Shown piece by piece: positions 50,466 through 62,461 of a stretch of 64,000 bases of DNA. The position numbers and the translations under genes were made by a program. This stretch comes from an uncultured Spirochaetales bacterium (GTDB taxonomy: Bacteria > Spirochaetota > Spirochaetia > Sphaerochaetales > Sphaerochaetaceae), in the NCBI GenBank assembly GCA_949285785.1, contig CASEAG010000028.1, forward strand, positions 229,161 through 293,160, read 5' to 3'. The notes under the pieces are model-generated. The model was not told the DNA's origin, searched no databases, and saw only the letters and a program-made list of their open reading frames with translations. How positions within the stretch are numbered: position 1 is the first letter of the stretch; every line of letters begins with the position of its first letter.

Positions 50466-52166
50466 ATGAAGAAATCCATTGCGATAGTCATGATGCTCCT
50501 GGCCGTCTTCTCGGTCTTCACGCTCGCATCCTGCGGCGGCAGCGACGAGACGACCACAACGGCCAGCTCCACGGCAACTACAACGACTACTACCACCACG
50601 ACTACGACAACGGCAACGGAGACCACAGCGGCACCTGCTGCGGCGGCCGAGGAGGACTACGTGTCCTTCGTCATCGCCAACGGCGCCGAGCCCGAGTCGC
50701 TTGACCCGAGCCAGATCCAGGGTGTTCCCGAGCACAGGATCTTCGAGGCCCTCTTCGAAGGCCTCGTGGCAGTCGATCCCCAGACTGCGGACGGCGTTCC
50801 CGGAGTCGCAGAGAGCTGGGACATTTCCGAGGACGGCCTGACATACACCTTCCACCTCAGGGAGGATGCCGTCTGGTCCGACGGTGTTCCCATAACGGCA
50901 CAGGATGTCGTCTATTCCTGGACACGCGAGCTCGATCCCGCAACCGGAAGCCCCTATGCATGGTTCCCCGCGATGTTCATCGCCGGAGCGACAGAGTTCA
51001 ATGCAGGCGAGGCTGACGCTTCCGCTCTCCAGATCGCAGCTCTTGACGACCACACCTTCCAGATGACTCTCGTGGGACCGCTTCCCTACGTCATCGGAGC
51101 TCTGTGCCACTACTCCTTCGGCATCGTACCGCAGCATGCCATCGAGGAGTTCGGCACCGACTGGACCAAGCCCGAGAACTTCGTCGGCAACGGTCCTTTC
51201 GTCCTTGCCGAGCATACTCCTCAGGACAGGATCGTCTGCGTCAAGAACGAGCTCTACTGGGATGCAGAGAACGTCGCTCTCGATGAAGTCGTATTCCTCG
51301 CTTCCGACGACACCGCCACGAACTACAACATGTACCTCTCCGGCGAAGTCGACTGGGATACGGGCATCGACCTCAACAACCTCGACGCCATCAGCATGAG
51401 ATCCGACTACCAGGTCGCTCCCCAGCTGTCCACCTACTACTACACCATCAACGTCACAGAGCCGCCTCTTGACGATCCTCTCGTGAGAAAGGCCATCAGC
51501 TATGCAATCGACCGCCAGGGTCTGGTCGACACGGTCACCCGCGCCGGACAGATCCCCTGCTGGGGCATCGTTCCCGAGATGGCAGGCTACGAGCCTCTCG
51601 AGGAGACCGCACAGGGCGGAGTCCTCTACGATCCCGAGTATGCACAGCAGCTGCTTGCAGAGGCCGGATATCCGAACGGAATCGGATTCCCGACGATCAC
51701 GGTCCTCTACAACACCGATGACGCTCACCGCCAGCAGGCCGAGTACATCCAGCAGCAGCTCAAGACCAACCTCAACATCAACGTCGTTCTCGAGAACCAG
51801 GAGTGGGCTACGTACCTCGCCAACAGAAATGCGGGCAACTTCCAGATCGCACGTGCCGGATGGGTCGGAGACTACCAGGATCCGAACACCTTCCTCGACA
51901 TGTTCATCACCGGTGCCGGCATGAACGGTGGAAAGTATTCCAACCCCGAGTACGACGAGCTGATCCGCCAGGCGGCATCCATGCCCGCAGGCGAGGAGAG
52001 GTTCAACGTCCTCAAGCAGGCCGAGGATATCCTCATCAACCAGGATCAGGCCATCATTCCTCTCTATGTCTATGTCTCCCAGGGCATGATCGACACGGAC
52101 AAGTGGGGCGGCTGGTATCCCAACACGATGGACTACCATCCTGTCAAGAACATCTACCTCAAGTAG
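50466..52166 (+). CDS. oppA: Oligopeptide-binding lipoprotein OppA
   Basis: A 566-residue family 5 solute-binding protein. The signal peptide ends LASC (Cys23). Residues 28-55 are a linker of mainly threonine, with one run of twelve, before the conserved body: SLDPSQIQGVPEHRIFEALFEGLV, VAESWDISEDGLTYTFHLREDAVWSDGVPITAQDVVYSW and VGNGPFVLAEH. It delivers peptides to OppBCDF but is separated from that operon by a terminator and an opposite gene, so it has its own promoter and probably much higher expression. Codon use is strongly biased, consistent with that. GGAGG precedes the ATG. Confidence 0.93.
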   Translation: MKKSIAIVMMLLAVFSVFTLASCGGSDETTTTASSTATTTTTTTTTTTTATETTAAPAAAAEEDYVSFVIANGAEPESLDPSQIQGVPEHRIFEALFEGLVAVDPQTADGVPGVAESWDISEDGLTYTFHLREDAVWSDGVPITAQDVVYSWTRELDPATGSPYAWFPAMFIAGATEFNAGEADASALQIAALDDHTFQMTLVGPLPYVIGALCHYSFGIVPQHAIEEFGTDWTKPENFVGNGPFVLAEHTPQDRIVCVKNELYWDAENVALDEVVFLASDDTATNYNMYLSGEVDWDTGIDLNNLDAISMRSDYQVAPQLSTYYYTINVTEPPLDDPLVRKAISYAIDRQGLVDTVTRAGQIPCWGIVPEMAGYEPLEETAQGGVLYDPEYAQQLLAEAGYPNGIGFPTITVLYNTDDAHRQQAEYIQQQLKTNLNINVVLENQEWATYLANRNAGNFQIARAGWVGDYQDPNTFLDMFITGAGMNGGKYSNPEYDELIRQAASMPAGEERFNVLKQAEDILINQDQAIIPLYVYVSQGMIDTDKWGGWYPNTMDYHPVKNIYLK

Positions 52167-52188
52167 CAGCTGTCTCGAGACGAATCCA

Positions 52189-52222
52189 CGGAAAGGTCAC
52201 CTTCGGGTGGCCTTTCCGCTTT
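52189..52222 (+). terminator. Rho-independent terminator of oppA
   Basis: CGGAAAGGTCACC (52189-52201) pairs with GGTGGCCTTTCCG (52206-52218) around a TTCG tetraloop, followed by CTTTCC. Very stable stem. Confidence 0.85.
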
Positions 52223-52226
52223 CCTG

Positions 52227-52255
52227 TTGACTAAAGCCCTCCTCTGTTCTAGGCT
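52227..52255 (+). promoter_or_regulatory. Promoter of the thiBPQ operon
   Basis: -35 TTGACT (52227-52232), 17-base spacer, weak -10 TAGGCT (52250-52255). The start of transcription near 52262 coincides with the 5' edge of the TPP aptamer. Confidence 0.5.
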
Positions 52256-52261
52256 CCATAG

Positions 52262-52334
52262 ATGTCCGGGGTGGCTATATGGCCTGAGATCATACCCGTT
52301 ACCTGATCTGGACAATACCAGCGTAGGGAGCACG
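52262..52334 (+). promoter_or_regulatory. TPP riboswitch (THI element)
   Basis: The conserved aptamer core is complete: GGGGTGG near the 5' side, CCTGAGATCATACCCGTTACC (broken at CTGAGA and TACCC boxes), CTGATCTGG, and AATACCAGCGTAGGGAG at the 3' side. It senses thiamine pyrophosphate and controls the thiamine importer genes directly downstream. Confidence 0.95.
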
Positions 52335-52336
52335 GC

Positions 52337-52389
52337 AGCCTCATTTCATACAGGACCTTCCCCAGGGCGAAGAGAAGAATACGGAGGCT
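52337..52389 (+). promoter_or_regulatory. Ribosome-site sequestering helix of the TPP riboswitch
   Basis: AGCCTC (52337-52342), just after the aptamer, is complementary to GAGGCT (52384-52389), which contains the ribosome binding site of thiB. Pairing would hide this site, indicating control of translation rather than termination. No terminator with a U-run is seen here. Confidence 0.6.
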
Positions 52390-52393
52390 AACA

Positions 52394-53425
52394 ATGAAAG
52401 GAAGAATCCTATCGGTCATCACTCTCCTGCTCTGCTCATCGCTTCTGCTGTTCGCACAGGCGGCAGACGAGTCGACGGGCGAAGACAGGACGCTCACGCT
52501 TTACTGCTATGACACGTTCTCGTCCGAATGGGGCAGCGGGCCTACCCTGATCCCCCTGTTCGAGGAGGAGACCGGAATCAAGGTCGATGTTGTCAGTACC
52601 GGAGATGCAGTCGAGATGCTCTCCAGGGCGATCATGGAGGGCGAAGACTGCCCTGCCGACCTCGTGATGGGAATATCCGACGACCAGGCATCGAAGGCCT
52701 ACGAGTCCGGTCTGTTCGAGCCATACGACTCGCCGGTGCTCGCCGATGTGGACGACTCGCTGGAGTTCGATCCCGAACACAGGCTCATCCCGTTCGACTA
52801 CGGCGTGTTCGCATTCGTCTGGGACAGCCAGAGCGACGTGCCGGCACCGAAGAGTCTGGACGATCTGATGGACCCGATCTACAAGGACAAGATAATCCTC
52901 ATCGATCCCAGGACATCGTCCGTCGGACTTGGCCTGCTGATGTGGACAATCGAAGTATACGGAGAAGACGGCTACCTCGACTGGTGGCGCGCCGTCGGCC
53001 AGAACGCGCTGACCATCGCCGACGGTTGGTCGTCCGGCTACGGGCTGTTCACGGAGGGCGAGGCCCCCATAGTGATCAGCTATACCACCAGCCCGGTCTA
53101 CCATGTGCTGTGGGAGGATTCCACGCGCTACCAGGCACTTGTCTTCCCCGAGGGACATCACAAGACGGTAGAGTCCATCGGCATGCTCGCCAGCAGCAAG
53201 CACAAGGACGAGGCGAAGCAGTTCATCGACTTCATCCTCACCGAAGGACAGGCCGAGACCGCGATTGCAAATTCGATGTATCCTGTCAACAGTGAGACGG
53301 AGCTGCCTGACGCCTATCAGTGGGCACCTGTTCCCGATACGGTTTTCAGCATGGATCCTGAATATGTTGCAGCCAACATAGACAGGTGGACAGAGGAATG
53401 GACGCAGGCCATGATCAACCTGTGA
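52394..53425 (+). CDS. thiB: Thiamine-binding protein of ABC importer
   Basis: A 343-residue periplasmic protein with a signal peptide ending LLLFAQAAD. The mature protein has the ThiB pattern: TLYCYDTFSSEWG, FEEETGIKVDVVSTGDAVEML, PADLVMGISD, RLIPFDYGVFAFVWD, DPRTSSVGLGLLMWTIEVYGEDGYLDWWRAV and SYTTSPVYH. Length is close to E. coli ThiB (327). It binds thiamine and its phosphates. First gene of the operon below the TPP riboswitch. Confidence 0.93.
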   Translation: MKGRILSVITLLLCSSLLLFAQAADESTGEDRTLTLYCYDTFSSEWGSGPTLIPLFEEETGIKVDVVSTGDAVEMLSRAIMEGEDCPADLVMGISDDQASKAYESGLFEPYDSPVLADVDDSLEFDPEHRLIPFDYGVFAFVWDSQSDVPAPKSLDDLMDPIYKDKIILIDPRTSSVGLGLLMWTIEVYGEDGYLDWWRAVGQNALTIADGWSSGYGLFTEGEAPIVISYTTSPVYHVLWEDSTRYQALVFPEGHHKTVESIGMLASSKHKDEAKQFIDFILTEGQAETAIANSMYPVNSETELPDAYQWAPVPDTVFSMDPEYVAANIDRWTEEWTQAMINL

Positions 53426-53439
53426 TACGAGGAGAGCGC

Positions 53440-55116
53440 ATGAGGAAGTCAACGAGAGGATCGGCATTCTATCCGGCATTGGCGTGCATTCCATTGGCAC
53501 TGCTGCTGATTCTCTTCATGCTTCCCCTCGCCTTCAACCTCATGAAGGCATTCATCGGCGAGGACGGCTTCACGCTCGACCTTGTAGTGGATGTCTTCAC
53601 GACACCATATACATACCGCCTGCTCGGCTTCACGCTGCTGCAGGCGGCGCTATCATCTCTCGTATCGGTCCTGGTCGCCATGCCAGGTGCATATCTGTAC
53701 GCGAACTACCGCTTCAGGCTCAAGGGCCTGATGCTCACTCTATCAAGCCTGTGCTTCGTGCTTCCATCCATTCTGGTCGTACTCGGCTTCGTGATATTCT
53801 ATGGCAACTCCGGCTTCGTGAACGCCGTCTGGCAGAAGATCACTGGAAGCGATGATCCGATCAGGATTCTCTACTCGTTCAAGGCGATCATACTGGCACA
53901 TGCATTCCTGAACATACCCGTCGCGCTGACGCTGATCAGCGAGGACTGGGCACATATGCCGCGCAGCCAGGAGAATGCATCCTATCTTCTGGGATCGTCC
54001 AGGCTGCACACGCTCTTCACTGTGACATTGCCGAGGATAGCTCCGACCATTCTCTCCGCGGCACTGCTCATCTTCCTGTTCTGCTTCACAAGCTTCTCGA
54101 TAATCCTTGTGCTCGGTGGAGGACCGCAGTACACCACGCTAGAAGTCGAGATATACAGGACGAACAACATCGTCATGGACAGCTCGAGGGCTTCGGCGCT
54201 GTCGATCTTCAGCTTCACCGTCAATCTCGTCATTCTCGTGCTCTACGTCCTGGTATCGAGAAGCGTGCCTTCCAGGGACAAGAGCCGCGACGACAGGGCC
54301 GTCAGGCCTGCCTTCATGAGGACGAAGGTGGCGATTGCCGTATACAATGCGCTGATGCTCGTCTTCATACTCGGTCCTCTTACATCGATTCTGGTCCGCT
54401 CCTTCACCTCGACTTCCAGCCGCTACGGCGAGGGCTTCTCGCTGAGAAGCTATGCGGAGCTGTTCGGCATGAGGCACAGCATCGGTGTGATGTCGGATGC
54501 ATTCCAGGCGCTGGTCAACAGCCTTGCCATAGGGCTTGCAGTGGCGACTCTCGCCACGCTCATGGCGCTGTTCCTGTCGCTGTACACGTCCAAGAGAAGG
54601 AGAAAGGCGATAGAGGTGCTGGGCATGTTCCCTCTGGCGATCAGCTCGGTCACACTGGGACTCGGCTATTACATCATAAGAGCCCACATACGCTCATCCA
54701 GCACGTTCACAGGCTATGTGCTTGTCGTGCTGGCGCATCTGGTCATCGCGCTGCCATTCGCGATGCGCACGCTGACGCCCGTGATCCGAGGACTGAACCC
54801 GAGGATACTCGAGGCGGCCTACACGCTCGGCTCATCCGTGGGAAGGACATGCTTCTCGGTCGAGATCCCCATGCTCAGGACGGCCATCGCCAGGGCCTTC
54901 ATCTTCTCGTTCGCACTCTCCGTCGGAGAGGTCAATGCGACGCTCACGCTTGCAGAAGGCAGGGTCGTCACCCTACCCATTCTGCTCTATCGCCTGATAA
55001 ACTCGTACAACTACCAGGGGGCATGCGCCATCGGAAGCGTCCTGATGGTCATGACATTCCTGATATTCGCATTCGCCCGGAGCCTGGGCGGCAGGAGGAA
55101 CAATGGGAACTCTTGA
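53440..55116 (+). CDS. thiP: Thiamine ABC transporter permease
   Basis: A 558-residue inner-membrane protein with two fused permease halves and about twelve helices, as in ThiP (536 in E. coli). EAA-type loops are visible in each half: ENASYLLGSSRLHTLFTVTLPRIAPT and EAAYTLGSSVGRTCFSVEIPMLRTAI. ATG at 53440 follows GAGGAG. It forms the channel for thiamine delivered by ThiB. It overlaps thiQ by 14 bases. Confidence 0.92.
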   Translation: MRKSTRGSAFYPALACIPLALLLILFMLPLAFNLMKAFIGEDGFTLDLVVDVFTTPYTYRLLGFTLLQAALSSLVSVLVAMPGAYLYANYRFRLKGLMLTLSSLCFVLPSILVVLGFVIFYGNSGFVNAVWQKITGSDDPIRILYSFKAIILAHAFLNIPVALTLISEDWAHMPRSQENASYLLGSSRLHTLFTVTLPRIAPTILSAALLIFLFCFTSFSIILVLGGGPQYTTLEVEIYRTNNIVMDSSRASALSIFSFTVNLVILVLYVLVSRSVPSRDKSRDDRAVRPAFMRTKVAIAVYNALMLVFILGPLTSILVRSFTSTSSRYGEGFSLRSYAELFGMRHSIGVMSDAFQALVNSLAIGLAVATLATLMALFLSLYTSKRRRKAIEVLGMFPLAISSVTLGLGYYIIRAHIRSSSTFTGYVLVVLAHLVIALPFAMRTLTPVIRGLNPRILEAAYTLGSSVGRTCFSVEIPMLRTAIARAFIFSFALSVGEVNATLTLAEGRVVTLPILLYRLINSYNYQGACAIGSVLMVMTFLIFAFARSLGGRRNNGNS

Positions 55117-56110
55117 GATCAGAGGGCTGAAGAAGAGGTATCCGGAATTCACAATGGAGGTCGACCTCACCGTGAATGAAGGCGAGTTTCTCACCATCAT
55201 AGGACCAAGCGGATCGGGCAAGTCGACACTGCTCAACCTGATATCGGGGCTGGAGAGTCCGGACGAAGGTTCCATCCTCCTCGATGGAAAGGACATCTGC
55301 GCACTTCCGGTTCAGAAGAGAGGCATCAGCATGGTCTTCCAGGACTATGCGCTCTTCTCTTCCATGAATGTCGAGAAGAACATCTCATATGCCATGAAGA
55401 TCCGCAAGGTGAAGCGGAGCGAGCGGAGAAGGCAGACCGATGCCCTGCTGTCGTTCGTCAACCTCTCGGGATACAACAGGAGGAAGGTGACGACGCTCTC
55501 CGGAGGAGAGGCGCAGCGCGTCGCTCTGGCACGCGCCCTTTCAAGCGACCCCGCCATACTTCTCCTTGATGAACCGCTGAGCGCCCTCGACGCGGCCCTC
55601 AGACGCCATCTCAGGGACGAAGTGCGCAGGATTCACGACGAGAACCCCGGCGTGACGACGATATACGTCACACATGACCGGGAGGAGGCGTTCAGCATCA
55701 GCGACCGCATCGCGATAATGAACGGTGGACACATCGAGATGGTCGCGGGCGGCGAGGAGATATACAACCAGCCGGCAAGCCTGTTCACCGCATTCTTCAC
55801 CGGGGAAGGCACCAGTCTGCCGTCGGACATGTTCGACATGGATGTGGATGCCGACACGATCTTCTTCCGGCCGGAAGCCGTGACGGTTCCTCAGACGAGG
55901 TTCTATGGTGATGCCGACGCCTACCTCATACTCGAGAACGTCCAGATAGTCTCCGCCGAATTCCTCGGGCCCTGCTACCTGCTGGGATTGATGTACGAAG
56001 GACACAGAATCCTTGCACAGTCGTCATTCAGACCGGCGGAGAACACCATCACGATCTACATAAGAAAGACCCGGCTGCTTCTGTTCAAGGACGGCAAGGC
56101 CGTCACATGA
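55103..56110 (+). CDS. thiQ: Thiamine ABC transporter ATPase
   Basis: A 335-residue ATPase: Walker A GPSGSGKSTLLN, Q-loop VFQDYALFSS, signature LSGGEAQRVALARAL, Walker B LLLDEPLSALD, switch THDREEAF. It is longer than E. coli ThiQ (232) because of a C-terminal regulatory-type domain of about 100 residues (TOBE-like, IFFRPEAVTVPQ ... RILAQSSFRPAENTITIYI). That resembles the PotA/CysA kind. The stop overlaps the next gene (ATGA), tying the caspase cassettes to the thiamine operon. Confidence 0.92.
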   Translation: MGTLEIRGLKKRYPEFTMEVDLTVNEGEFLTIIGPSGSGKSTLLNLISGLESPDEGSILLDGKDICALPVQKRGISMVFQDYALFSSMNVEKNISYAMKIRKVKRSERRRQTDALLSFVNLSGYNRRKVTTLSGGEAQRVALARALSSDPAILLLDEPLSALDAALRRHLRDEVRRIHDENPGVTTIYVTHDREEAFSISDRIAIMNGGHIEMVAGGEEIYNQPASLFTAFFTGEGTSLPSDMFDMDVDADTIFFRPEAVTVPQTRFYGDADAYLILENVQIVSAEFLGPCYLLGLMYEGHRILAQSSFRPAENTITIYIRKTRLLLFKDGKAVT

Positions 56111-56637
56111 GACGTCTCGCGCTCCTGGTCCTGATGACCCTCATGCTATCTCATCTCGCCGCACTGGAGCTGCGCGTCTCTACATCGGTCCACCAGGGAG
56201 TCGGACAGGCCTTCAACTTCATCGAAGGAGGAGGATGCGACGTGCGCACGAGCTTCAGCACCACGGCCGCCCTTTCCTTCCTCCTGGGCGACGACGACAC
56301 GGTTCTCATAGGCCCGGGCCTCTCGGTCATCTTCAATTCCAGGACACCTGCACTCGAGCGGATGTTCTACAGCGGCTACATACAGGCGGCAGGAGGCATC
56401 GAGGCACGCATCGCGCTTCCCGGTCCGTTCGCCCTCGGCCTTGAAGCCGCACTGGCAATCGGCAGGTACGAGGATGTGGACGTGACCATCTCGTCCATCC
56501 TCGCGCTCATCGCATTCCGCTACGAGCCTGTCGAGTACTTAAGCCTGTCCCCGGCAATCAGCATCGCCTTCAACGGCAGCGATGTCACGGCACGGTTCCT
56601 CATAGGCCTATCCTTCACAAGCGGGGACCTTCTATGA
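56107..56637 (+). CDS. Small exported beta-barrel-like protein, cassette 1
   Basis: A 176-residue protein with a signal peptide ending LSHLAALELR. The mature part alternates hydrophobic and polar residues in strands (ELRVSTSVHQGVGQAFNF, AALSFLLGDDDTVLIGPGLSVIF, GYIQAAGGIEARIAL, FALGLEAALAIG, SSILALIAFRYEP, SPAISIAF, TARFLIGLSF), which suggests an eight-stranded outer-membrane barrel. No family recognised. Its ATG overlaps thiQ and its stop overlaps the caspase gene, both by 4 bases. It is the first half of a duplicated two-gene cassette and may anchor or export the protease; that is inference. Confidence 0.65.
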   Translation: MRRLALLVLMTLMLSHLAALELRVSTSVHQGVGQAFNFIEGGGCDVRTSFSTTAALSFLLGDDDTVLIGPGLSVIFNSRTPALERMFYSGYIQAAGGIEARIALPGPFALGLEAALAIGRYEDVDVTISSILALIAFRYEPVEYLSLSPAISIAFNGSDVTARFLIGLSFTSGDLL

Positions 56638-57554
56638 GAAGACCGTTTCCAGTCATCGCCATCTTCCTCGCCGTACTGCTGGTCTCATGCGATCTCATGA
56701 TGGCGCTTCAGGATGACGGGTCCGGCTACGACGTGTATCTGGTGTCGGTCGCGTTGAACTACCATGGCATCGCAGAAGATGGGATAAGCGAGCTCGAGGG
56801 GACGCTAAACGACCAGAGATATATCTCGCAGCAGCTCGAGCATCTGTGCTCCCTCTCGGGCGTCGGCTACGATGCCTGGCTCGTGAGCGACGGCTCGCTC
56901 ACATCTGAAGGCCTCAACGGCGATGAGGATGTCAGACGGCTCATGAGGATATCAGGAGGAACGAGGACCGAAAAGGAGCTTGAGAAAATCGACAGGGACA
57001 CGATAGACGACATCCTATGTGACGTCTCAAGGCTTGTCGACAGCGACGACCTCCTGGTCTTCCACTACTCCGGACATGGGTATGCAGGGACAGGTGACAT
57101 CCTGCTGCCGGGAGACGGTCATGGGGTGGCCTACCCGCTCGACGATCTTGCCGCCGTTATCGAACGTGTTCCATGCAACCGCTTCATCTTCATGGATTCC
57201 TGCTACTCCGGCAACATCGTCGACGTGACGCTGGACGATGTGAGGACCGGACTCGACAATCTCTTCACCAGATACGACCTGCCTGACAGCAGGACCTGGT
57301 ACAGCGCATCCTGCCAGGTGGATGAGGCGAGCTTCACGGACATGACAGGCTACCCGGTTCCTCTCGGAGCCCACAGCGCAGGTCTGCTCAAGGCCCTCGG
57401 CTTCGACATCATGGCTCTGGAGCCAGGCAGGCCGGAAGACGACGTGCTGACAATCAACACGGTTCTCGAGAGGACGACGACCGGATACGACGACCGTCAG
57501 CATTCGACCAGTACATCAGGCACAAGGGATCTGGTCCTGTTCAGATTCGACTGA
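56634..57554 (+). CDS. Caspase-like (C14/metacaspase fold) lipoprotein, cassette 1
   Basis: A 306-residue predicted lipoprotein (signal peptide with lipobox LLVSC, Cys19). The caspase catalytic dyad is clear: His148 in LLVFHYSGHGY and Cys190 in FIFMDSCYSGN. The DSCYSG form is like metacaspases (DSCHSG). The strand-1 region YLVSVALNYHG followed by LEGTLNDQRYISQQLEHLC is also typical of the p20 fold. The C-terminal part (about 215-306) includes WYSASCQVDEASF and LGAHSAGLLKALGF, matching the p10 region. It should act in the periplasm or on the outer membrane. Substrate and role unknown. Paralogue of the gene at 58166. Confidence 0.85.
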   Translation: MRRPFPVIAIFLAVLLVSCDLMMALQDDGSGYDVYLVSVALNYHGIAEDGISELEGTLNDQRYISQQLEHLCSLSGVGYDAWLVSDGSLTSEGLNGDEDVRRLMRISGGTRTEKELEKIDRDTIDDILCDVSRLVDSDDLLVFHYSGHGYAGTGDILLPGDGHGVAYPLDDLAAVIERVPCNRFIFMDSCYSGNIVDVTLDDVRTGLDNLFTRYDLPDSRTWYSASCQVDEASFTDMTGYPVPLGAHSAGLLKALGFDIMALEPGRPEDDVLTINTVLERTTTGYDDRQHSTSTSGTRDLVLFRFD

Positions 57555-57611
57555 ATACCCTGCTGTGCACAAAAGACGACATAATCGGGTATGTAGCCAT
57601 GAGGAGAGATG

Positions 57612-58163
57612 ATGAGAAGGACATCCATCGCCTCCATCATGGCGCTGATGCTTCTGGGCACTCTTCATGCCGGCATATCATACACGCCATCGATGGATAT
57701 CGGTTCATCGCTTGTGCTATGCAACAACCTGACGCTCGAGAAGGAGCCTGTGGACAGCAGGACCAGCTTCGCCATGGACATCGAGGCCAGTCCTCTGTCA
57801 ATGACCATAGACGGCCGACATACCGTCTCGCTCGCAGTGAAGCTCTCCCGCCTCTCGGATTCGCTTCCATACATGAACACGCTAATGCTCGGCAGCACCA
57901 GGCTGGGCATATTCCTGGACTACGAGGTGCGTATCTCATGTTTCACCGTCTCGGTGAACCTGGGTGCCGGCTATGCCATCGTCAACAGGCAGGACATGGG
58001 CTACGTATACACAGACACCTCGATATCCGCATCATGTCTGGTCGATGAATACATCGCCATGGTCCTGGATGCCGGTCTGGTCTACCGCAGGGAGTATCTG
58101 GAGACGCATGTCGGCGTGGCGATGAAGCTGATGCTTCCTTCCGGCATCACAGGAGGGAGGTGA
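57612..58163 (+). CDS. Small exported beta-barrel-like protein, cassette 2
   Basis: A 183-residue protein with a signal peptide ending LGTLHAGISY. The mature sequence again looks like a small barrel (MDIGSSLVLCNNLTL, SFAMDIEASPLSMTI, HTVSLAVKLSRL, LGIFLDYEVRISCFTVSVNLGAGYAI, SISASCLVDEYIAMVLDAGLVY, THVGVAMKLML). It has little sequence identity with the cassette 1 protein by eye, but same size, place and strand pattern. ATG at 57612 lies five bases after GAGGAG; ATG at 57609 is an alternative. It follows cassette 1 after 57 bases with no clear terminator. Confidence 0.65.
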   Translation: MRRTSIASIMALMLLGTLHAGISYTPSMDIGSSLVLCNNLTLEKEPVDSRTSFAMDIEASPLSMTIDGRHTVSLAVKLSRLSDSLPYMNTLMLGSTRLGIFLDYEVRISCFTVSVNLGAGYAIVNRQDMGYVYTDTSISASCLVDEYIAMVLDAGLVYRREYLETHVGVAMKLMLPSGITGGR

Positions 58164-58165
58164 AG

Positions 58166-59149
58166 ATGAAATCTGGAGCGATGACGCTGGCGATGCTCGC
58201 AATCGTCTCGATGCTTGCATCATGCGAGCTGATGAATGACGATCCCGCCGATGACAGGAGGGTCTACCTGATGACGGTTGCCCTGGATTACGTCGACACG
58301 GACATGAACCCGCTTCGTGGAACCGTGAACGACCAGGATGCAATGGAACGCCAGATCGAGTTCCTCTGCAGACAGGATGGGTGCGACTACACGATGATCT
58401 CGTTCAGCGCCAGGGGCGGCACGTATTCCAGGAGGGAGGTCTCCTTCAGCAGGCGCACCGGAGAGAGAATCTCATACTATTCCACGATACCCCGCACCGG
58501 GATGAAGGAGAGGATTCTCGACGAGATCGGACGCCTCTCGCATCAGGTGACCGACAAGGACATCTTCATATTCCACTATGCAGGACATGGTGCCGACAGC
58601 ACGGGGGACGACGACCGTCACCTCAACGGAGCGCTCGTCGTGGGCGACATCGTCTTCCCGGAAATCGGCTCATGGCAGGACGAGGCGGCCAACCAGTCAA
58701 GTCTCGTGACGATAGCGGAGCTGAAGATGGCCCTTGCCTTCATCGATGCCCCGCGAATGGTGATGCTGGACTCATGCTACTCCGGCTCGCTCATGGGCCA
58801 GGACGTCGATACGGACAGAATCGGCGAAATCCTCTCGTCCATCCGCAGAATGCTTTACACGGGAAGCGTCGGAAACGACCGCTGGTATCTGTTCAGCGCA
58901 TCGCGCGACGACGAGGTCAGCTACGAGGACTCCAGGCGTGGACTGCGGCATGGCTGCTTCTCCGCCGCCATGCTCGAGGCTCTGGGCTACAGGTTCCACG
59001 AAGACGGCATGGAGGGTCCCGGCCTTCCCGACGATCCGACGATAACGGCCAGCATGCTCTACGAGAGGATCGGAGATGACGGACTGTGGGAGTACCAGAA
59101 TCCTCAGATGAATCCATATCACGTGGATCTGGTACTGTTCACTCTGTGA
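58166..59149 (+). CDS. Caspase-like (C14/metacaspase fold) lipoprotein, cassette 2
   Basis: A 327-residue predicted lipoprotein (lipobox MLASC, Cys20). Catalytic His141 lies in FIFHYAGHGAD and Cys204 in MVMLDSCYSGS. It shares with the first copy the segment GTVNDQDAMERQIEFLC and the late pattern WYLFSASRDDEVSYED ... GCFSAAMLEALGY. The loop between strand 1 and the catalytic His is longer and rich in Arg/Ser (SARGGTYSRREVSFSRRTGERISYY is split by it), a possible self-cleavage site if it prefers basic residues. ATG at 58166 follows GGGAGG. Its last 11 bases overlap the end of uvrB on the other strand. Confidence 0.85.
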   Translation: MKSGAMTLAMLAIVSMLASCELMNDDPADDRRVYLMTVALDYVDTDMNPLRGTVNDQDAMERQIEFLCRQDGCDYTMISFSARGGTYSRREVSFSRRTGERISYYSTIPRTGMKERILDEIGRLSHQVTDKDIFIFHYAGHGADSTGDDDRHLNGALVVGDIVFPEIGSWQDEAANQSSLVTIAELKMALAFIDAPRMVMLDSCYSGSLMGQDVDTDRIGEILSSIRRMLYTGSVGNDRWYLFSASRDDEVSYEDSRRGLRHGCFSAAMLEALGYRFHEDGMEGPGLPDDPTITASMLYERIGDDGLWEYQNPQMNPYHVDLVLFTL

Positions 59150-61211
59150 TGAAGTGGCCGGCCTTTATGCGCTCGATCTCGTCGCGGATGGCTGCGGCCT
59201 TCTCGAACTCGAGCCTGTCGGCCAGGTCCCGCATCTCCTTCTCCAGGGAGCGCAGGTACTTCTTCCTGTCCTTCTCGATCAGGAGGTTGAAGCTGGAGCG
59301 CTGTATCCTGAGCTCCTCCTTCTGGATGTCCTCGGCATCCTTCATCTGGCGCTCCAGGATGTCCTCGACGGCCTTGCGTATGGTCTGCGGCGTTATGCCA
59401 TGCTCCTTGTTGTATGCCATCTGCACGGCACGGCGGTGCTCGGTCTCGTTGATGGCCTCCTTCATGGCCTCGCTCATCTGGTCCGCGTACATTATCACAC
59501 GGCCGTCGGCGTTTCTGGCGGCACGTCCTATGGTCTGTATCAGCGAGGTGGCCGAGCGGAGGAAGCCGATCTTGTCGGCATCGAGGATTGCGACCAGAGC
59601 CACCTCGGGAAGGTCGAGCCCCTCCCTGAGCAGGTTGATGCCCACCAGGACATCGAATACGCCCTTCCTGAGGTCGGTGAGGATCTCCACACGCTCGATC
59701 GTCTCGACTTCGCTGTGCAGATAGCGCACCTTCAGACCGAGAGAGGCCATGTAGGAGCTCAGGTCCTCGGCCATCTTCTTCGTCAATGTCGTCACGAGCA
59801 CACGCTCGCCCTTGGCGATCGTGGTGCGTATCTCGCCGTAGAGGTCCTCCATCTGGCCTTCGGTCGGGCGCACCTCGATCGACGGATCGAGAAGACCCGT
59901 AGGCCTTATCAGCTGCTCGACGACACGGGTGCTCTCCTGGAGCTCGGTCCTGCCCGGCGTCGCACTGACATAGATCCGCTGGCCGACCTTGTGGTCGAAC
60001 TCCTCGTACTTGAGAGGCCTGTTGTCGAGGGCGGAGGGCAGACGGAAGCCGTAGTTGACCAGATTGAGCTTCCTGGACCTGTCTCCTTCGTACATCGCAC
60101 CTATCTGGGGAAGCGTCACATGCGACTCGTCGATGAACACGACGAAGTCGTCAGGGAAATAGTCCAGCAGAACCGCTGGCCTCTCGCCGGGGGCGCGGCC
60201 GGCAAGAGGTCTGGAATAGTTCTCGATGCCTGAGCAGTAGCCCACCTCCCTGAGCATCTCGATGTCGTATTCCACACGGCTCTTCAGCCTCTCCTTCTCC
60301 ACGAGCTTGCCCTGGCTGTCGAAGTACTCGAGCTGGTCCGCAAGCTCGCTCTCGATACGTCCGATTGCACTGTCCAGAGCCTCCTTGGGCATGACGAACT
60401 GCTTTGCAGGATACAGCGTGAAGCTGTCCAGCCTGTCGAGCTTCTCAAGCGTCAGCGGATCGAATACGTCGATGGAGACGATCTCGTCCCAGTCCAGGGT
60501 TATCCTCACCGCCGACTCGAGATAGGCCGGATAGATCTCGATCACGTCGCCTCGGACACGGAAGGTGCCGCGTGAGAGCACCATGTCGTTGCGTTCGTAC
60601 AGCATCCTGACCAGCTGCTCGAGCTCCACCTTGTGGTCGAACACCTCCCCCACGTGGTAGGAGTGGATCATGTCCTTGATCGAGACCGGGTTGCCCAGAC
60701 CGTAGATGCAGCTGACAGTCGAGATGACGACCACGTCGCGGCGTTCCATCAGGGAGAAGGACGCGCTGAGCCTAAGGCGGTCGATCTCGTCGTTGATGTC
60801 CGCCTCCTTCTCAATGTACAGGTCCTTGCCCGGGACATACGCCTCGGGCTGGTAGTAGTCGTATGTCGAGACGAAGTACTCGACCGCGTTCTCCGGGAAG
60901 AACGACTTGAATTCCCTGTAGAGCTGTGCGGCAAGCGTCTTGTTGTGCGAGAGCACGAGCGTCGGACGGTTGATCCTCTCTATGATCTTGGCCATGGTGA
61001 AGGTCTTTCCGGATCCGGTGACGCCCTTGAGCGTCTGTGCCCTGTCGCCGGCCTCCAGCCCCTTCGAGAGCGCGTCTATCGCCTGCCCCTGGTCGCCGGA
61101 GACGTCGAATGGCGCCACGACCTTGAACGACCTGTTCTTCAGCACGGCCCCCTGATGGACATTCACCACGTCCTCGCCCGCCCAGGCGGCGCCACCCCTG
61201 TTCTCGCTCAT
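59139..61211 (-). CDS. uvrB: Excinuclease ABC subunit B
   Basis: A 690-residue DNA repair helicase-like protein of nucleotide excision repair. Walker A GVTGSGKTFTMAK, the beta-hairpin region YDYYQPEAYVPGKDLYIEK, VFIDESHVTLPQ (Walker B), RIYVSATPGRTE, and motif VI QTIGRAARNADG are present. The C-terminal UVR motif (LEKEMRDLADRLEFEKAAAIRDEI) binds UvrC. ATG at 61211 follows GAGGTG and overlaps the protease stop (ATGA); an in-frame GTG at 61223 lies inside the upstream gene. Confidence 0.96.
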   Translation of the reverse strand: MSENRGGAAWAGEDVVNVHQGAVLKNRSFKVVAPFDVSGDQGQAIDALSKGLEAGDRAQTLKGVTGSGKTFTMAKIIERINRPTLVLSHNKTLAAQLYREFKSFFPENAVEYFVSTYDYYQPEAYVPGKDLYIEKEADINDEIDRLRLSASFSLMERRDVVVISTVSCIYGLGNPVSIKDMIHSYHVGEVFDHKVELEQLVRMLYERNDMVLSRGTFRVRGDVIEIYPAYLESAVRITLDWDEIVSIDVFDPLTLEKLDRLDSFTLYPAKQFVMPKEALDSAIGRIESELADQLEYFDSQGKLVEKERLKSRVEYDIEMLREVGYCSGIENYSRPLAGRAPGERPAVLLDYFPDDFVVFIDESHVTLPQIGAMYEGDRSRKLNLVNYGFRLPSALDNRPLKYEEFDHKVGQRIYVSATPGRTELQESTRVVEQLIRPTGLLDPSIEVRPTEGQMEDLYGEIRTTIAKGERVLVTTLTKKMAEDLSSYMASLGLKVRYLHSEVETIERVEILTDLRKGVFDVLVGINLLREGLDLPEVALVAILDADKIGFLRSATSLIQTIGRAARNADGRVIMYADQMSEAMKEAINETEHRRAVQMAYNKEHGITPQTIRKAVEDILERQMKDAEDIQKEELRIQRSSFNLLIEKDRKKYLRSLEKEMRDLADRLEFEKAAAIRDEIERIKAGHFITE

Positions 61212-62461
61212 CTGATAAGCCACCTCATGTTCTCGACGGTCTGCTCGACCAGCTGTACGTTCCTGATCGTCATCCTGGCCCCGTTGCGGATCACCGTCAC
61301 GTCCACCTTGTCAGTGCTCGAGGTATCCGCCATGAAGGCATAGTAGTCGTTGTAGCCGGTTATCGGGACGCCGTCCAGAGCCGTGATTATGTCACCGCCC
61401 AAGTAAATCACGCTGGAGCCGTATGCCGTGCGCACGGAGCCGCCCTTCAGACCGGCCTTGTCGGCCTGTCCAGCAGGCACGACCTGGCTGATGAGGATGC
61501 CTTCGCCGACAGGAAGCTGGGCATAGTCCACGATCATCGGATTCAGCTCCACCGAGAGTATGTCGAGCGTTCCCCTGCTCACGCGGCCGTCCCTGATGAT
61601 CCGGCCTGCTATGTCTATGACCGTGTCGACGGGTATGGCGAAGCTTATGCCCTGGGCGCTGCCGCTGGTCGAGTAGATGGCCGTGACGAGTCCGACCATG
61701 CGCCCCTTGGCGTCGAGAAGCGGTCCGCCGCTGTTGCCCGGGTTGATCTGTGCATCCGTCTGGATGAGCCCGGACAGCGAGATGCCTTCGCTTCCTGTCA
61801 CCGTGCGCTCCAGCGCCGCCACGGTGCCCACGCTCTGGGACCAGGAGTAGCCATATGGAGAGCCGATTGCCATGACCTTCTGACCGACCACGAGCTCGTC
61901 GGCGGACATGAACGAAAGCGGGATCAGCGCCTCGTCGCAGTCCACCTTGATGACGGCGATGTCGGTTATCGGGTCACTTCCCACGAGAGAGGCCTCAAGC
62001 TCGTCCCCGTAGAGGAACTTGACCGTGAGCTTGCCGCCCGCGGACACCACATGCGTATTGGTCACGATATATCCATCGGAGGTTATCACGACGCCGCAGC
62101 CCATCGATGATGACAGTTCGCTGGATGCATAGATCTCGACGACGGATCCGGCACACTTCTCATAGACCTTAATGTTCTGCATCTCATCTGCCGAATAGCG
62201 CCAGCTCTGGCTGCCCTCCTCGAAGAGGAGCAGTCCCTCGTCGGAATAGAAGATGTCGTCGACCTCATAGCCTCCCAAAGCAAGCAGGGCACGCTCTCCA
62301 CCCTCCATGCCGATGCGCTCGAGTTCGCGCCTGAGCTCGTCGCTCCGCTTCTCCTGGGATATCCTGATGGTCCATAATGAAAGCAGGACCAGGACCGCGA
62401 CGACTACCACGGCGAGACATACTGCGAGGATGATTCGGGAAAGAGGTGGTCTGGACTCCAT
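61208..62461 (-). CDS. HtrA/DegS-type membrane-anchored serine protease
   Basis: A 417-residue protein. Residues 9-31 form a membrane anchor; a spacer with a coiled segment follows. The trypsin-like domain has the triad His (IVTNTHVVSAGG), Asp (DPITDIAVIKV) and Ser (INPGNSGGPLLD). One PDZ domain lies at about 315-410 (EGILISQVVPAGQADKAGLKGG, GDIITALDGVPI). It is a periplasmic quality-control protease. It is translationally coupled to uvrB by a 4-base overlap. Possible gene names include degS or htrA; the single PDZ and anchor favour DegS-like. Confidence 0.9.
   Translation of the reverse strand: MESRPPLSRIILAVCLAVVVVAVLVLLSLWTIRISQEKRSDELRRELERIGMEGGERALLALGGYEVDDIFYSDEGLLLFEEGSQSWRYSADEMQNIKVYEKCAGSVVEIYASSELSSSMGCGVVITSDGYIVTNTHVVSAGGKLTVKFLYGDELEASLVGSDPITDIAVIKVDCDEALIPLSFMSADELVVGQKVMAIGSPYGYSWSQSVGTVAALERTVTGSEGISLSGLIQTDAQINPGNSGGPLLDAKGRMVGLVTAIYSTSGSAQGISFAIPVDTVIDIAGRIIRDGRVSRGTLDILSVELNPMIVDYAQLPVGEGILISQVVPAGQADKAGLKGGSVRTAYGSSVIYLGGDIITALDGVPITGYNDYYAFMADTSSTDKVDVTVIRNGARMTIRNVQLVEQTVENMRWLIR

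Follow-up and report, generated by a model that had tools for sequence, protein, structure and literature searches.

The stretch analysed here (the window) comprises 64,000 nucleotides (nt) of contig CASEAG010000028.1, positions 229,161 to 293,160, in a 2.05 Mb draft genome of an uncultured Spirochaetales bacterium of the Sphaerochaetaceae, a family whose spirochaetes live in guts and sediments, and it carries a thiamine import operon that continues into genes for caspase-like proteins. The only thiamine pyrophosphate (TPP) riboswitch detected in the genome lies ahead of thiB, thiP and thiQ, and past thiQ there are two tandem modules on the same strand, each with a gene for an outer-membrane barrel and then a gene for a metacaspase-like lipoprotein, up to the convergent uvrB (Table 1). 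An earlier sequence-only reading of the window had described successive 4-base overlaps joining thiQ, barrel 1 and caspase 1, and ATGA is indeed found at both junctions. The feature that it placed at 55103-56640 is real, but an end at 56640 leaves out most of it, since module 2 (57609-59149) begins 54 nt past caspase 1 and finishes against uvrB. A third ATGA overlap, between barrel 2 and caspase 2, is available through the GTG start at 58160, with the ATG at 58166 as an alternative start. The caspase modules are physically within the TPP-riboswitch thi operon, as had been proposed, and the layout is an old one common to many genera.

The same reading saw no terminator from 52262 to 59149, and the only terminator-like site found in this region is a weak hairpin within thiQ at 55329. 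Across 52100-59400 the number of such sites is at chance level, 2 found versus 2.7 expected, the other one being the good terminator that closes the upstream oppA-like gene and sets it apart from the thi operon. On the + strand, promoter-like sites are located only within thiB and thiP, also at chance level, and no promoter above chance separates the genes of the operon, before 56107 or further on.

Related loci were fetched with a ThiB alignment query, blind to caspases, from 80 relatives and as 80 named loci, and thiB, thiP, thiQ, barrel, caspase, uvrB and degQ were located in each. With duplicates removed, thiBPQ present and at least 2.5 kb of sequence beyond, 77 unique loci were resolved, and 44 of them have a barrel gene and then a caspase gene on the same strand directly past thiQ. 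The linked loci are mostly from Sphaerochaetaceae, where almost every species has the pair behind its thiamine import genes, and include Sphaerochaeta, Candidatus Ornithospirochaeta, Aphodenecus and two other families of this class, f4 and f23; family f3 also has the arrangement, with thiB on another contig. The TPP riboswitch is found upstream of thiB in nearly all these genomes, and the barrel and caspase pair is absent at the thi loci of Treponema, SAR324 and others sampled. Recurrence on this scale puts the arrangement beyond chance, and a local insertion or an artefact was rejected on the same ground. The read-through insertion that the sequence-only reading had allowed for, in which the cassettes would be recent arrivals downstream of an unrelated operon and confined to this strain, could draw on those genomes where thiQ or thiP directly abuts uvrB with no cassette; these sites look, however, like later losses within the family, and the cassette is present in all 12 genomes of the window's genus with a resolved junction as well as in many genera and families, so that this explanation is refuted by the comparative data and retains almost no probability. 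This form of the operon goes back to the ancestor of Sphaerochaetaceae and perhaps further, and the pairing is far older than a chance insertion.

Three loci depart from the common pattern in other ways. One thi locus has kept the barrel and lost the caspase, immediately before uvrB (L159:12577-13407), and genome G028 has a barrel gene of this family ahead of thiB and not past thiQ (L108:2291-2932, - strand), with the caspase on another contig. A lipoprotein open reading frame just upstream of thiB (L088:2863-3594) matches the caspase profile weakly, at E about 0.002-0.007, and probably through the signal peptide only.

Table 1. Features of the thi operon and its borders in the window
Feature	Coordinates	Strand	Evidence or remark
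Intrinsic terminator, closes upstream oppA-like gene	52189..52218	+	13-pair stem, 8 G-C pairs, T-rich tail
TPP riboswitch aptamer	52257..52347	+	RF00059 56.3 bits, gathering cut-off 54.3
Predicted expression platform, without terminator	52337..52389	+	AGCCTC (52337-52342) pairs with thiB Shine-Dalgarno region GAGGCT (52384-52389)
thiB, thiamine ATP-binding cassette (ABC) transporter substrate-binding protein	52394..53425	+	TIGR01254 265 bits, cut-off 93.4
thiP, fused thiamine-type ABC permease	53440..55116	+	PF00528 in two stretches; top NCBIfam matches are ThiP models
thiQ, ABC ATPase, 335 amino acids with C-terminal extension	55103..56110	+	PF00005 1e-37; operon position
Barrel 1, signal peptide and 8-stranded outer-membrane barrel	56107..56637	+	ATGA overlap with thiQ; homologous to barrel 2 (iterated profile search)
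Metacaspase-like lipoprotein 1 (lipobox LVSC, HYSGHG, DSCYSG)	56634..57554	+	PF00656 4.1e-6, above cut-off; alignment
Barrel 2, signal peptide and 8-stranded outer-membrane barrel	57609..58163	+	AlphaFold2 pLDDT (predicted local distance difference test) 93, 8 strands; Z 18.7 OmpA, 18.2 NspA
Metacaspase-like lipoprotein 2 (lipobox LASC, HYAGHG, DSCYSG)	58160..59149	+	PF00656 1.5e-9; AlphaFold2 pLDDT 90; Z 21.9 metacaspase-4
uvrB, convergent neighbour outside operon, synteny control	59139..61223	-	PF12344, PF17757

Among the related loci the junctions are tight. In 40 of 53 modules the barrel and caspase genes share exactly 4 nt, and 46 of 47 loci have a spacing of -4 to 123 nt between thiQ and the barrel gene, with the 4 nt overlap in the window and five others. 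Terminator-like sites occur at the thiQ junctions of 3 out of 48 loci. The modules might instead be driven by a promoter of their own and escape control by TPP. Between thiQ and the barrel gene 10 of the 48 loci have a promoter-like site against 9.6 expected by shuffling, and an own cassette promoter was rejected for want of any excess, with the reservation that a sigma-70 scan may be ill suited to promoters of spirochaetes. A gap of 88-123 nt in some lineages and of 488 nt in L087 would leave room for such a promoter, and a switch that probably acts on thiB translation would leave downstream transcription largely free; the 4 nt gene overlaps speak against it, and we regard separate expression as improbable. 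The module is doubled in the window (candidate genus Aphodenecus), and in a tree of 87 caspases tandem copies are found in Aphodenecus and, independently, in Sphaerochaeta.

The two window caspases, the only ones detected in the genome, match Peptidase C14 (PF00656) with 27.1 and 38.3 bits, the curated cut-off being 21.4. The lipobox Cys, His141, Cys204, Asp56 and Asp202 are invariant in 38 aligned relatives; His141 and Cys204 form the catalytic dyad, which is intact in both window proteins. The invariant lipobox Cys indicates that the products should be lipid-anchored and not secreted, as they had been called at first. Asp56 and Asp202 fall opposite the plant metacaspase motifs NDx and DSC, at the place of the acidic S1 pair, which in TbMCA2 is Asp95 and Asp211 and holds the basic P1 residue (PMC4357240, PMC6426788), and from the alignment cleavage after Arg or Lys is predicted for the caspases. 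The model of caspase 2 (pLDDT 90) superimposes on plant metacaspase 4 (6w8r) with Z 21.9 and a root-mean-square deviation (rmsd) of 2.7 over 218 residues, and the solved structures closest in sequence are metacaspases, with matches to Arabidopsis metacaspases 4 and 9. Legumain and MALT1 were rejected as closest kin, their high fold scores reflecting shared clan CD folds while metacaspases are closer by sequence, and so was a caspase of the EACC1-associated (anti-phage) type, for which NF047832 gives 25.4 and 38.8 bits, far under the cut-off of 140. Membrane location and protease activity are accordingly what the lipobox and the active-site residues would lead one to expect.

Most caspase pairs have a ratio of nonsynonymous to synonymous substitution rates (dN/dS) of 0.11-0.19 and most barrel pairs one of 0.10-0.25, compared with 0.03-0.15 for the thi genes, which points to purifying selection on caspases and barrels that nevertheless seem to evolve faster than the thi genes. 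Against genome G011 the values are 0.36 for barrel 1 and 0.47 for caspase 1, and 0.25 for barrel 2 and 0.17 for caspase 2. Module 1 (56107-57554) would then be changing faster than module 2, as if one copy were diverging after the duplication, a rough comparison in which dS is high (0.7-0.8).

Neither window barrel has any Pfam match, and PF13505 is matched by 5 of 34 barrel members (best 1e-5), the window proteins not among them. Their assignment comes from structure prediction: barrel 2 is modelled by AlphaFold2 with pLDDT 93 and 8 long strands after the signal peptide, it is matched to OmpA with Z 18.7 and rmsd 2.1 and to NspA with Z 18.2, and barrel 1 is homologous to it by iterated profile search. 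A thiamine substrate channel is unsupported by this eight-stranded OmpA/NspA-like fold, and eight-stranded barrels are usually too narrow for an open pore. Barrel and caspase may also pair physically.

ThiB passes its family model (Table 1) and falls below the stricter TIGR01276 (224.9 versus a cut-off of 317), and the equivalog cut-offs for ThiP (185.5 versus 395.1) and ThiQ (166.6 versus 245.1) are missed as well, so that thiP and thiQ are identified by gene order and the riboswitch. ThiE was not detected in the genome and a thiamine pyrophosphokinase was found, indicating that the host probably relies on import of thiamine.

In 26 loci that bear the cassette or are close kin, and where the start codon could be placed, thiB begins 27-60 nt past the aptamer and no terminator lies between the two. 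A riboswitch of the terminator type was therefore rejected (0 of 26 leaders), and the switch probably gates the translation of thiB. By RNA folding the Shine-Dalgarno region of thiB in the window pairs with AGCCTC at the 3' edge of the aptamer with a probability near 1, a pairing that is variable in relatives. Secreted proteases under TPP control, as the sequence-only reading had worded it, is consequently too direct a description. Three tandem TPP aptamers about 136 nt apart, each under the gathering score, were seen in similar form in two genera (G017:C1:649115-649485 and G046:C52:18620-18989), and pairs of TPP aptamers occur in G035 and G047.

The strongest statement supported is that in Sphaerochaetaceae the thiBPQ operon led by the TPP riboswitch ends, on its 3' side, in an ancient envelope protease module of barrel and lipid-anchored metacaspase; in the best reading this module would be co-transcribed and specific for Arg and Lys. 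We slightly favour, as somewhat better than an even chance, the explanation that all of this is one operon and that the envelope protease module is co-expressed with the importer when TPP is scarce. The riboswitch, thiBPQ and two copies of the two-gene module would make up a single transcription unit, the module having been doubled in the window's genus. The first gene of each module would give a small 8-stranded outer-membrane barrel, and the second, usually reached by reinitiation at ATGA, a lipid-anchored metacaspase cutting after Arg or Lys. At low TPP thiB would be translated and the module co-expressed by read-through transcription and chained translation. Its likeliest role would be that of an envelope- or surface-tethered protease made together with the importer, possibly for freeing protein-bound thiamine or for adjusting the envelope during thiamine shortage. 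The more specific form of this, in which a drop in TPP brings out barrel, lipid-anchored Arg/Lys protease and importer together and the protease frees bound thiamine or TPP from proteins of the host, of food or of neighbours, is rather unlikely as it stands.

Several observations weigh against coupling to thiamine. With a switch that probably is translational and acts on thiB, an effect of TPP on genes 3.7-6.8 kb downstream would only be indirect, via read-through transcription, translational coupling and polarity, which is possible given the overlaps. Convergent uvrB-degQ stands beside 43 of the 44 linked loci and also beside several thi operons without a module, and as a DNA-repair gene with no expected tie to thiamine is equally conserved, the block order must have further reasons for being kept. 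Away from thi genes there are caspases, most of them partnered by a barrel, in L205, L209, L210, L212-L215, L218 and L123, and the fetched loci of such caspases showed no TPP riboswitch. In G019 a caspase adjoins uvrB in a locus without thi genes, with thiB on another contig, and in four loci (those of G033 and G048 and two more) thiQ and the cassette are missing between thiP and uvrB, consistent with joint loss of the two where thiP abuts uvrB. The unlinked modules, G019 and the cassette-free loci together indicate that the module is self-sufficient and that its linkage to thi is old yet breakable. In a rival explanation the module is co-transcribed with thiBPQ and has an unrelated role in the envelope, the thiBPQ-module-uvrB-degQ block being rarely rearranged in these small genomes: uvrB-degQ is kept alongside, modules thrive elsewhere without the riboswitch, and a caspase stays by uvrB where thi has moved off. 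We consider it a serious possibility, somewhat short of an even chance; yet a common strand, tight spacing (often the 4 nt overlap) and the lack of terminators across deep divergence argue for more than adjacency, as does the duplication or extension that the module underwent within the operon, once in Aphodenecus and independently in Sphaerochaeta. We rank functional coupling to thiamine only slightly ahead of riding along. Co-transcription and a response of the protease to TPP would follow from the operon structure, and a thiamine role of the module is plausible but unproven.

Two side observations concern exceptional loci. In L110, L111, L165 and L178 thiP directly abuts convergent uvrB, thiQ and the cassette having apparently gone together, and these importers would require an ATPase from elsewhere, and in L206, L208 and L213, from small rumen spirochaete genomes, a caspase away from thi genes is followed by two more lipoprotein genes, which may be an alternative conserved neighbourhood.

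With bacterial thiBPQ operons led by a TPP riboswitch the window operon shares an aptamer directly 5' of thiB and the ThiB/P/Q order, but it has the additional 3' barrel and caspase genes, and its switch would be of the translational type. The barrels resemble the OmpA transmembrane domain, NspA, OmpX and OmpW in their eight strands and signal peptide, but the identity is about 10% or less and the barrels at thi loci are nearly always accompanied by a lipoprotein caspase. Gingipains (C25) are a functional analogy only, being caspase-fold Arg/Lys proteases outside the cell that serve nutrient gain, and they differ in family and secretion route. An acidic S1 residue is present in the RgpB gingipain too (PMC4357240). 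Like prokaryotic metacaspases or orthocaspases (C14, PF00656), the window caspases have the caspase fold, the His-Cys dyad and the acidic S1 pair; unlike them, they are lipid-anchored, paired through overlapping genes with an outer-membrane barrel, and encoded in an operon for vitamin import that a riboswitch heads. Among metacaspase operons a survey from 2012 mentions those with OmpA-domain proteins and transporters, and neither thiamine nor spirochaete operons with several metacaspases (PMC3501461). No account of a thiamine-operon pairing of barrel and lipoprotein metacaspase was found in the open literature searched, and the pairing is apparently undescribed, although a search of this kind does not prove that none exists.

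Bacterial metacaspases have mostly been discussed in relation to cell death or stress, and little is known of what they do physiologically. In these spirochaetes they would constitute a defined and conserved envelope module that operon structure links to one particular nutrient and one RNA switch, so that thiamine limitation offers a setting for tests and the barrel is a named partner. Even without the thiamine link there would be an apparently new pair of barrel and lipoprotein metacaspase, widespread in Sphaerochaetaceae and present in other spirochaete families.

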